DNA of 64,000 bases from Chryseobacterium sp. 36-9. GTDB taxonomy: Bacteria; Bacteroidota; Bacteroidia; Flavobacteriales; Weeksellaceae. The translations under genes and the position numbers were made by a program. The stretch spans positions 1 through 64,000 of the forward strand of contig MKVE01000022.1 in assembly GCA_001898785.1 (NCBI GenBank), read 5' to 3'. The notes under the pieces are model-generated. The model was given only the letters and a program-made list of their open reading frames with translations. It ran no database searches and was not told where the DNA came from. Of the stretch, positions 3,955 to 21,663 are shown piece after piece (within the stretch, counting starts at the first letter, position 1; each line of letters starts with the position of its first letter).

Positions 3955-4368
3955 GAGGTTTTAGGTTGTAGGGTTTGAGTCTTTGAGAGAATTGATTAAA
4001 CCACTTAACATTTTAGAAATTTCAATAATATTAAAACTAAGTTCCTCAAAGCTATTTTCATCGATAAATCCTAAGTTTTTGGAGATAATGATTTGAGTTT
4101 CTACTTCGCTACAACTTCCTCTCGCTATTCTTAAAAACTGTACATAATCAGCTTTACTTCGTCTGGTATTTCCTTCAGCGATATTACTTGGGATTGATAC
4201 TGATGCTCTTCTTAATTGAGAAGTCAAACCATAGATTTCGTTTGACGGAAATTTCTCCGTCACTTTATAAATTTTCGTTACCAAATCAATCGATTTTTGC
4301 CAAACAATTAATTCTTTAAAATGTGCCATAACTGAAGCCTATTTCCTAAAACCTATTACCTAAAATTC
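3955..4368. repeat. Heptad-repeat-bordered unit carrying the four-helix-bundle gene
   Basis: The gene at 3961-4329 is framed by inverted repeats built on a 7-nt period. On the left, TTTTAGG and TTGTAGG run from 3959 to 3972. On the right, four exact heptads CCTATTT, CCTAAAA, CCTATTA, CCTAAAA run from 4338 to 4365. Read outward to inward, both ends give TTTTAGGT..TAGG. The left repeat covers the stop codon of the small gene and lies 2 bp from the DUF58 start; the right one abuts the moxR stop. The unit of about 410 bp looks inserted between moxR and DUF58. Confidence 0.55.
3961..4329 (-). CDS. Four helix bundle protein (S23 / 23S rRNA intervening-sequence family)
   Basis: This 122-residue, all-helical protein has the family hallmarks: an FKELIVWQKSIDLV start, the central SQLRRASVSIPSNIAEG motif, and a final helix. 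Members are often encoded in intervening sequences of 23S rRNA genes in other bacteria, but many Bacteroidota carry free-standing copies. Their molecular role is not established; nucleic-acid binding has been suggested. Here it lies between moxR and DUF58, genes that are normally neighbours, and is bordered by inverted heptad repeats, so it looks like an inserted cassette. Confidence 0.9.
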   Translation of the reverse strand: MAHFKELIVWQKSIDLVTKIYKVTEKFPSNEIYGLTSQLRRASVSIPSNIAEGNTRRSKADYVQFLRIARGSCSEVETQIIISKNLGFIDENSFEELSFNIIEISKMLSGLINSLKDSNPTT

Positions 4369-18826: not shown

Positions 18827-20275
18827 ATGTCTAAATACACCGAAGACGACCTGAGAGTCGATCTCGAAAATCAAAAGTATGAATTCGGATTCGAAACGGA
18901 TATCGAATATGAAGATTTCCCGATAGGTCTGAATGAAGATATCATCCGTGCGATTTCTGCTAAAAAAGAAGAACCGGAATGGATGACCGACTGGCGTTTG
19001 GAATCTTTCCGAATCTGGCAAAAAATGGAAGAGCCGAATTGGGCCAACATCAAATATCAAAAACCTGATTTCCAAGCTATCCGATATTATGCTGCGCCAA
19101 AGGCAAAACCAGAATTGGCAAGTCTTGATGAAGTGGATCCGGAATTACTGAAAACTTTCGCAAAATTGGGAATCAATATCGAGGAACAAAAAAGATTAGC
19201 GAATGTTGCGGTTGATATTGTTGTAGATTCAGTGTCTGTAAAAACAACGTTTCAGGAAACTTTGAAGGAGAAAGGTATTATCTTTTGCTCTATTTCCGAA
19301 GCGATCAAAGAACATCCGGAATTGGTAAAACAATACATCGGGAAAGTCGTTCCAAGAGGCGATAATTTCTACGCCGCTTTGAACTCCGCAGTTTTCTCTG
19401 ACGGAAGTTTCTGCTACATTCCAAAAGGTGTAAGATGTCCAATGGAACTGTCAACTTATTTCCGTATCAATCAGTCTGGAACAGGACAATTCGAAAGAAC
19501 TTTGGTCATTGCTGACGAAGGAAGTTATGTTTCATATCTTGAAGGTTGTACAGCGCCATCGAGAGACGAGAATCAGCTACACGCTGCTGTTGTTGAATTG
19601 ATTGCTCTTGACAATGCTGAAATCAAATATTCTACCGTTCAAAACTGGTATCCCGGAGATGAAGAAGGAAAAGGTGGTGTTTTCAATTTTGTGACTAAAA
19701 GAGGACTTTGCGAAAGAAATGCAAAGATTTCCTGGACTCAGGTTGAAACAGGTTCTGCTGTAACCTGGAAATATCCGAGCTGTATTTTGAAAGGTGATAA
19801 TTCGGTTGGTGAATTTTATTCCATTGCGGTTACCAATATGCACCAATATGCAGATACAGGAACGAAGATGATTCATATTGGAAAGAATACTAAATCAACC
19901 ATTATTTCTAAAGGAATTTCTGCCGGAAAATCTAATAATTCTTATCGTGGATTGGTAAAAGTAATGCCGACCGCAAAAGGAGCGAGAAACTTTTCTCAAT
20001 GTGATTCTTTACTAATGGGTAACGAATGTGGTGCTCATACTTTCCCTTACATAGAAATCAAAGACCCGACTGCACAACTGGAACACGAGGCAACGACTTC
20101 GAAAATCGGAGAAGACCAGATTTTCTATTGCAACCAAAGGGGAATCGACACAGAAAGAGCAATTGCATTGATTGTGAATGGATTCAGTAAAGAAGTTTTG
20201 AATAAGCTTCCTATGGAATTTGCCATTGAAGCTCAGAAGTTGTTGGAGATTTCTCTGGAAGGTTCAGTTGGATAG
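18827..20275 (+). CDS. sufB: Fe-S cluster assembly scaffold protein SufB
   Basis: This 482-residue scaffold subunit of the SufBCD complex shows family blocks such as [61 protein letters not shown] and the C-terminal [19 protein letters not shown]. Nascent clusters form on SufB with SufD, driven by the SufC ATPase. Length is normal. A repeat-bordered GxxExxY gene now separates it from sufC. Confidence 0.95.
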
Positions 20276-20396
20276 ATTTTTATCGCAAGGTTAAACAAAG
20301 ATTTTCTTTGATTGTTTGAAAAAATTTTAAAGAAATACAAAGCCGCTAAAGCTTAGGAAAGTAATACAAGTTTTAAATTTCTACAATTAACTTGTT

Positions 20397-20404
20397 TATC
20401 TTTG
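20397..20404 (+). promoter_or_regulatory. Bacteroidota -7 box inside the cassette
   Basis: TATCTTTG fits TAnnTTTG and lies just before ATG 20411. It would give the GxxExxY gene its own, nearly leaderless transcript, and could also feed sufC and sufD. No good -33 TTG is seen. Confidence 0.45.
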
Positions 20405-20410
20405 CGAAAA

Positions 20411-20812
20411 ATGACACAAATGACAGAGAATGAAATTTCAAAGATTGTCTTTGAAAGTGGGTTAAAGATTCATAGAAAATTGGGTATAGGCTTATATGAA
20501 AGTATTTACGAAGAATGTCTTTTCTATGAATTGAAAAAAGCAGAAGTAAAAGTCGAAAGACAAAAACCTCTGAATATCCAATATGAAGAATTGTTGCTGG
20601 AAAATGCTTTTAGAATGGATTTATTAATTGAAAACAAGGTTGTTTTAGAAATTAAATCTGTTGAAAGTTTAAATAATTTTCACGCATCACAATTAAAAAA
20701 TTATTTAAGACTAGGAAATTATAAGTTAGGAATGCTTATTAATTTTAATTCTCAACTATTTAAAAATGGTGTAATGAGAATTGCAAATGGTCTTGATTAT
20801 AATACAAAATAA
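20411..20812 (+). CDS. GxxExxY protein (PD-(D/E)XK nuclease-like fold)
   Basis: This 133-residue protein carries the defining GLYESIY at residues 27-33. It also has a PD-(D/E)XK-like pattern: D70 in RMDLLI, E80-x-K82 in VLEIKS and QLKNY (94-98), which is the QxxxY motif seen in RecB-type nucleases. Family members are abundant in Bacteroidota and Planctomycetes; none has a settled function, and nuclease activity is only inferred from the fold. ATG 20411 is chosen because the earlier TTG overlaps the -7 box; ATG 20420 is also possible. It is embedded between sufB and sufC within inverted repeats. Confidence 0.85.
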   Translation: MTQMTENEISKIVFESGLKIHRKLGIGLYESIYEECLFYELKKAEVKVERQKPLNIQYEELLLENAFRMDLLIENKVVLEIKSVESLNNFHASQLKNYLRLGNYKLGMLINFNSQLFKNGVMRIANGLDYNTK

Positions 20813-20916
20813 GAAACAATAGTATTTCATTGATAAGCGTTAGCGCCTTTGTTTCACTTAAAAAAGCAAAGGAAGATAAAAAAATCTTTGTCTAGCCTTG
20901 CGATAAATTTAAAAGT

Positions 20917-21663
20917 ATGTTAGAGATAAAAAACTTACACGCCAAAATTGAAGACGGCGACAAAGAAATTTTAAAAGGAATCAATCTTGAAATAAAACCG
21001 GGCGAAGTTCACGCGATTATGGGACCGAACGGAGCTGGAAAATCGACTCTTTCTTCTGTGATTGCAGGAAAAGAAGATTATGAAGTAACGGATGGCGAAA
21101 TTCTTTTCGAAGGAGAAGAAATCGGCGAAGATGCACCCGAGGAAAGAGCACACAAAGGAATTTTCCTTTCTTTTCAGTATCCTGTGGAAATACCTGGCGT
21201 TACTGTTACCAATTTTATCAAAGCCGCTCTTAATGAAACCAGAAAAGCCAACGGATTGGAAGAAATGGGCGCTAAAGAAATGTTGGGATTAATTCGTGAA
21301 AACTCTGAAAAATTAGGAATCAGAAAAGATTTCCTTTCTCGTTCTTTGAACGAAGGTTTCTCCGGAGGTGAAAAGAAAAGAAACGAGATTTTCCAAATGA
21401 TGATGCTGAACCCGAAACTGGCAATTCTTGACGAAACCGATTCCGGATTGGATATCGATGCTTTAAGAATCGTCGCTGATGGTGTGAACCAATTCAAAAA
21501 TGAGGGCAACGCTGTTTTATTAATCACGCATTATCAAAGACTTTTAAATTATATTCAGCCAGATTTCGTTCACGTTTTGGCAGATGGAAAAATCATAAAA
21601 ACAGGAGATAAATCTTTAGCACTTGAATTGGAAGAAAAAGGTTACGATTGGCTTTTGAACTAA
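20917..21663 (+). CDS. sufC: Fe-S cluster assembly ATPase SufC
   Basis: This 248-residue ABC-type ATPase powers the SufBCD scaffold in the cytosol. Walker A is GPNGAGKST (near residue 36), the signature is [10 protein letters not shown], and Walker B with the SufC-specific follow-up is [16 protein letters not shown]. Its start lies 9 nt after the right end of the GxxExxY cassette. A palindromic repeat separates it from sufD. Confidence 0.96.

Follow-up and report, generated by a model that had tools for sequence, protein, structure and literature searches.

A Palindrome-Bounded Cassette with a Predicted GxxExxY Nuclease Gene between sufB and sufC of Chryseobacterium, and Its Gene-Less Relatives

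A small insert carrying a GxxExxY gene between two inverted arms lies between sufB and sufC of Chryseobacterium sp. 36-9. The unit exchanged between species consists of the cassette and little flanking DNA, and it occupies the same intergenic slot in each. A gene-less palindrome, type C in our naming, is most abundant where the cognate GxxExxY lineage is present. We regard it as just probable that this insert is a selfish cassette bounded by palindromes, with a Cas4-like nuclease that promotes the spread both of itself and of gene-less copies. The window, by which we mean the whole stretch of 64,000 nucleotides analyzed, belongs to a genome of 3.48 Mb. Its features around the cassette are as follows, with the names sufB and sufC taken from ORF translations.

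18827-20275, plus strand: sufB, the upstream neighbor, an ORF 91-98% identical across 13 named suf loci
20279-20367, plus strand: left arm, with outer block 20279-20308, an AT-rich spacer, and inner block at about 20340-20367
20397-20404, plus strand: TATCTTTG box, 6 bases 5' of the ATG, read from the sequence
20411-20812, plus strand: GxxExxY/PDDEXK_3 gene, 133 aa, with PF13366 and TIGR04256 matches
20822-20907, minus strand: right arm, an inverted copy of the left arm, with inner block at about 20822-20850 and outer block 20878-20907
20917-21663, plus strand: sufC, the downstream neighbor, an ORF whose start lies 9 bases past the right arm

The outer inverted repeat (20279-20308 and 20878-20907) is 30 nt long and 90% complementary, and the full-length arms of 86-89 nt match each other at 73% (20279-20367 against 20822-20907). 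Because the arms match along their whole length, each arm is a single unit that has the outer block at one end and the inner block at the other. These arms confirm an earlier note on this DNA, which had described two-block inverted repeats framing a GxxExxY gene between sufB and sufC. The inverted-arm score of the window, 57, compares with a maximum of 37 in 770 dinucleotide shuffles (ten per locus, 77 loci), which places the arms beyond chance. An arm profile (R1) built from 16 arms, those of the window among them, recovered the left unit at 20279-20360 (E = 1.9e-11) and the right unit at 20830-20907 (E = 7.7e-14). The TATCTTTG box resembles what we take to be the Bacteroidetes -7 consensus. 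A promoter and terminator scan of 20200-21000 gave nothing above shuffles and no terminator-like site, in agreement with the earlier claim that the cassette brings no terminator.

The window protein matches PF13366, the only PF model to do so, at 131.7 bits (cut-off 22, E = 2.1e-38), and TIGR04256 (GxxExxY) at 131.4 bits (cut-off 35, E = 1.9e-38). Residues D70, E80, and K82 are kept in all 73 GxxExxY proteins and Q94 and Y98 in 72 of 72; the window protein has all five, which we take to form an intact PD-(D/E)XK active site. Its AlphaFold2 model has a mean pLDDT of 93.5. Searched against the PDB with Foldseek, the model gave three matches with E values of 0.001 or less, all to Cas4 SSO0001 (best 1.3e-4, TM-score about 0.5), followed by the weaker lambda exonuclease and RecE (E = 0.002-0.01). 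Fold and QxxxY motif together presumably indicate the Cas4/lambda-exonuclease branch, and a nuclease of this branch is what we predict the window protein to be. Such genes are common in the group, as PF13366 matches occur in 35 of 59 genomes (the window's included), with up to eight per genome when fragments and weak matches are counted. In one paper the name GxxExxY serves only to label a gene that neighbors a reverse transcriptase, and no paper among the matches listed in our literature search links GxxExxY or PDDEXK_3 to repeats.

Inverted arms proved to be a general feature of GxxExxY loci. The test set comprised 77 loci, namely, the window and 76 fetched loci, with orthologues and a minority of the PF13366 matches outside the genus included. 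Inverted arms scoring at least 30 were present in 55 of these, against 2.5% of shuffles, and arms paired with an arm from another locus reached 30 in 8.2%. Direct repeats also exceeded chance (24 of the 77 loci) because some loci contain extra arms. When 73 proteins were grouped at 85% identity into 30 clusters (L107, L112, L127, and L134 were dropped, as their proteins fall outside the 80-200 aa limit), the best member reached an arm score of 30 in 23 clusters, and in 18 of those the left arm paired best with the right arm of its own locus. Among named loci (the best 80 of 288, mostly Flavobacteriia), inverted arms of at least 30 occurred in 55 of 80 and direct ones in 23 of 80, while 3 of 400 shuffles reached this score. 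The earlier note had suggested testing whether paired blocks enclose other GxxExxY genes, and related arms are indeed found around them. It had also considered that the same gene at the same place in all relatives, with no similar repeats elsewhere, would speak against mobility; the gene does stand at the same place in relatives, yet similar repeats occur elsewhere too.

Arms sort into types by their words: type A has CGCAAAG-NN-CGCAAAG with the inner word GCGCTTCGCTCA, type C has CCACATAGRCACATAG, and type D has CCACAAAAGNNACAAAAG, where the labels A, C, and D are our own. The window arms are a variant of type A; no near-identical gene-less copy of this variant was found in its own genome, though relatives exist there. 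A further type A unit lies at 2536-2603 of the window (E = 2.1e-8). The type A profile (16 arms) detected at least 22-86 units in each of 23 congeners, counts that are lower bounds, with 150 candidates scored per genome. In the one-contig genome G004, 6 of 61 type A units by our count have an opposite-strand partner within 1 kb, so most type A units stand alone. Types C and D occur as facing word pairs. Twenty gene-less type C copies from genome G017, chosen because their words came as facing pairs, span 62-122 nt, and none lies within any ORF found in 300-nt flanks. Each of the 20 begins and ends with the outer word, and most contain inner blocks resembling those next to the type C GxxExxY gene.

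The numbers of type C palindromes follow the presence of the cognate gene. Type C words, counted on both strands with at most one mismatch, number 22-60 in 7 carriers versus 0-21 in 16 noncarriers (Mann-Whitney p = 9.5e-5), and the association holds in a phylogenetic regression on a tree built from sufB, sufC, and a thiolase (p = 1.5e-4). The reversed type C pattern, used as a control, gave 0. Types D and A show weak trends only: type D words number 28-84 versus 3-46 (p = 0.011; 0.09 with phylogeny), and type A gave p = 0.08 with ten carrier genomes, a value left unchanged by adding the suf and G002 carriers. In crossed tests, type C words by the D gene gave p = 0.05 (0.14 with phylogeny), type D words by the C gene gave 0.11 (0.47), and type A words gave 0.83 by the C gene and 0.34 by the D gene. 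Later typing of seven further in-genus genes (six new ones and L055) yielded no type C gene; the G006 gene is accompanied by type D words, but its genome had been included in the counts before. Eight further in-genus matches, weak ones in proteins about 360 aa long, lay outside this typing. Outside the genus, 36 genomes from the same order were compared: 12 of the 13 that are PF13366-positive have the A/B word pair, versus 1 of the 23 that are negative (p = 1.3e-7 by Fisher's test, uncorrected for relatedness), the one exception among the positives being G032, whose match is weak.

Since gene-less palindromes exist and type C is most numerous alongside its cognate gene, the gene-bearing form looks like a helper. 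The earlier note had called the insert a non-autonomous mobile cassette, and the term non-autonomous may not fit with such a role. The word mobile fares better: the sufB-sufC sites of congeners are occupied, differently occupied, or near-empty, in six congeners the cassette is much younger than its flanks, and related arms recur at other GxxExxY genes.

Across 23 congeners, the sufB-sufC gap holds the window's cassette in six and, in one, a version that is 80% identical and has one more pair of arms. In two it holds another GxxExxY gene, only 33-35% identical and flanked by arms of a different kind, and in nine other DNA; the remaining five are near-empty (about 40-60 nt). A junction in the paa operon was compared in 21 congeners. 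It is occupied by a GxxExxY cassette in five, by palindromes of type C in two and of type A/B in another two, and by other palindromes of two kinds in nine; in three it is short (39-53 nt). At a third junction, type C palindromes occur in four of 23 congeners, all of them carriers of the type C gene. With three junctions variously filled in this way, the same gaps evidently receive different palindromes, with or without a gene. The comparison of sufB-sufC spacing proposed in the earlier note thus produced near-empty sites, but a target duplication could not be recognized by eye; the same holds for a clean duplication at the paa and third-junction sites.

Divergence data support the mobility of the cassette between species and its being much younger than its flanks in six congeners. 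In all 15 pairs of these, fourfold divergence of the suf cassette is 0-0.10 versus 0.20-0.46 for sufB and sufC pooled. Noncoding parts of the cassette diverge by 0-2.8% on the right and 0.7-7.5% on the left, with fourfold values of 22-54% for sufB and 16-38% for sufC with some DNA beyond. Within Chryseobacterium, suf cassette divergence is about equal to that of sufB and sufC, and across 16 genomes the cassette is less diverged than these genes in 89 of 120 pairs. More broadly, 87 of 100 pairs from 15 clusters show lower divergence in the GxxExxY gene than in the ORFs beside it, although only near-zero divergences are decisive here, as the clusters were picked by protein similarity and the genes are AT-rich. 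Two clusters without overall recent exchange have a lower value for the gene in 7 of 15 and 2 of 6 pairs.

The edges of the exchanged DNA fall at or near the arms in the suf and paa loci. In suf, divergence drops within the left arm from about 10% to 4% or less and climbs again some 90 nt past the start of sufC; in four pairs, the sequences begin to differ again 4-58 bases beyond the left arm and 30-102 bases beyond the right. The paa cassettes of G004, G017, and G006 have one or two gene differences, with flanks that differ by 11-13%. Differences on the left resume at -77, -77, and -124, that is, 1, 1, and 48 bases outside an outer block that begins at -76, and on the right at +142, +142, and +160, or about 6, 6, and 24 bases outside a block that runs to about +136; one difference (+39) lies within the cassette. 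These paa outer blocks were recognized by eye, as the arm test gets the inner blocks only (score 22-27). The tract shared by L072 and L128 extends some 180 and 260 bases past the arms, and a clear divergence step at the arms is absent in most other pairs profiled. The suf and paa edges thus place the arms at or near the borders of exchanged DNA, with short flanks included in some pairs.

Alternatively, GxxExxY might be passive cargo that does something else (e.g., defense), with natural transformation swapping permissive operon gaps and an unknown transposase moving the palindromes. We consider this unlikely. The slots do contain many unrelated inserts, other genes included, the extra direct-orientation arms suggest repeated insertion, and in G014, which has no PF13366 gene at all, 39 type A units persist. 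However, passive swapping fits poorly with exchange edges that lie near the arms in suf and paa and with a type C gene-palindrome association that survives phylogeny. Among transposases, the Y1/RAYT type was surveyed as a candidate mover and rejected: it has 0-4 matches per genome, its numbers do not follow those of type C (rho = -0.09) or type D words, and two genomes that lack Y1 (G005 and G016) have many units.

Site fidelity bears on how the gene-bearing form spreads. All 15 multimember clusters (58 loci, one of them compared on a single flank) keep one site, so that the proof of transposition that one lineage at two sites would have offered was not found in them. Likewise, among the best 80 of 288 named loci, all 13 that are at least 78% identical (from Epilithonimonas, Chryseobacterium, and Cloacibacterium) lie between sufB and sufC, and neither gene was seen in the flanks of the other 67 (at most 66% identical), some of which end at contig ends. 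One site per lineage argues that, over this span of time, the gene-bearing form has not transposed freely, and favors a spread that is site-specific or resembles homing. In a homing-like process, the nuclease would cut the cassette-free allele and double-strand-break repair would copy the cassette in; the arms would then be borders or landing DNA, and the palindromes would be moved otherwise. The adherence of one lineage to one site across three genera suits this reading, as do the near-empty alleles, the conserved active site, and same-site exchange, in which the flanking DNA carried along reaches about 100 bases in suf and exceeds that in L072/L128. Edges that far from the arms shift some weight from the palindrome-cassette model toward homing. 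The nearest folds, however, are Cas4 and, more weakly, lambda exonuclease rather than homing enzymes, and homing leaves unexplained the abundance of matching gene-less palindromes alongside the gene. We judge it unlikely.

The selfish cassette that we favor would work as follows. The two inverted arms, each with an outer and an inner block, would mark the cassette ends around the nuclease gene. The nuclease may recognize the outer words as double-stranded DNA and may cut or trim there, and the cell's own repair would then finish the transfer. With one helper enzyme, both the cassette and the gene-less palindromes could spread. We propose action on double-stranded DNA because the tests for RNA pairing and compensatory change lent no support to RNA. 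An element acting at the RNA level, as 23S rRNA intervening sequences do, with arms that pair in the transcript and are processed and the gene in the loop, would account for inverted arms around one small gene within an operon, and a 23S-IVS-type family, PF05635, has inverted arms in the same genomes (13 of 30 loci, from about 110 matches). Nevertheless, arm mismatches are not biased toward sense-strand G-U pairs (26 versus 33, p = 0.43, 23 loci), the 20 gene-less type C elements have no excess of compensatory changes (6 cells versus 7.4 in shuffles), and sixteen arms gave no consensus fold, all of which makes an RNA-level element very improbable.

By analogy, the cassette appears to work most like REPIN-RAYT, a system of palindromic mobile repeats with a partner gene, minus the defining enzyme. 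REPIN-RAYT systems comprise short intergenic palindromes in tens of copies, with a partner gene nearby and each palindrome family paired with a gene lineage (PMC3116915, PMC8266576). Similarly, the GxxExxY gene has on its two sides inverted copies of a palindrome, or of the arms of one, that is dispersed between genes. The partner in the cassette, however, is a predicted PD-(D/E)XK nuclease, whereas that of REPIN-RAYT is an HUH tyrosine transposase (Y1); in addition, the type C elements give no covariation signal, the arms give no fold, and GxxExxY lineages are site-faithful between species. Insertion sequences and MITEs are another instance in which gene-bearing and gene-less forms share ends, as GxxExxY cassettes and gene-less palindromes do, but the cassette has no transposase, no target duplication was found by eye, and no lineage of the gene-bearing form was observed at a second site. 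Free-standing homing endonucleases are small intergenic nuclease genes that spread into the same site in other species. The GxxExxY cassette does the same, but differs in its inverted two-block arms, its dispersed gene-less relatives, and its Cas4/exonuclease-like fold. Finally, the 23S rRNA intervening sequence with its S23 gene, called a selfish element acquired horizontally (PMC4990558), is also an insert with a small gene, but the cassette lies outside rRNA, encodes an unrelated protein, and was negative in the RNA-pairing tests. It is rather an analogue for the PF05635 four-helix-bundle genes of these genomes.

If the association of type C palindromes with their gene is causal, the GxxExxY family would supply the enzyme for a mobile system that is based on palindromes and has an exonuclease-like partner, a system not described among the literature matches listed, and many anonymous intergenic palindromes in these bacteria would be explained. 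A broader generalization is tentative, and we consider it less likely than not: GxxExxY proteins may serve as helpers for mobile DNA of a new class, in which a lone Cas4/lambda-exonuclease-like nuclease recognizes type-specific end words of two-block palindromes and drives their spread, with or without its own gene, and with no transposase, integrase, or reverse transcriptase. In the same proposal, PF05635 genes might be helpers of sister palindromes in the same slots.

Several further observations concern these neighboring elements. The window has a PF05635 four-helix-bundle gene of its own (4000-4317, minus strand), with an arm score of 25 and no arms that stood out. PF05635 matches occur in all 23 congeners, at 1-9 each, and some adjoin sufB or sufC by coordinates. 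Solo type A arms lie directly before genes, some before seemingly the same gene in several genomes. At 58 solo-unit loci (L194-L251; orthologues included, a few cut at contig ends), 52 of the 55 adjacent genes that could be assigned are transcribed in the direction leading away from the unit, an orientation that may reflect either a regulatory role or oriented insertion. In G013 (contig C1, 53873-54915), type A units form a tandem array with a period of about 96 nt. At the paa junction, the palindrome CTTCGACTCCGCTCAGCGTGACA and its inverse, with variants, occur in five congeners (L337, L338, L346, L350, and L351). An Rfam search of six type A loci gave no match on the units themselves, but Flavo-1 RNA matches lie near the units in two of the six, at 1312-1379 in L233 and, below the cut-off, at 1334-1453 in L204.
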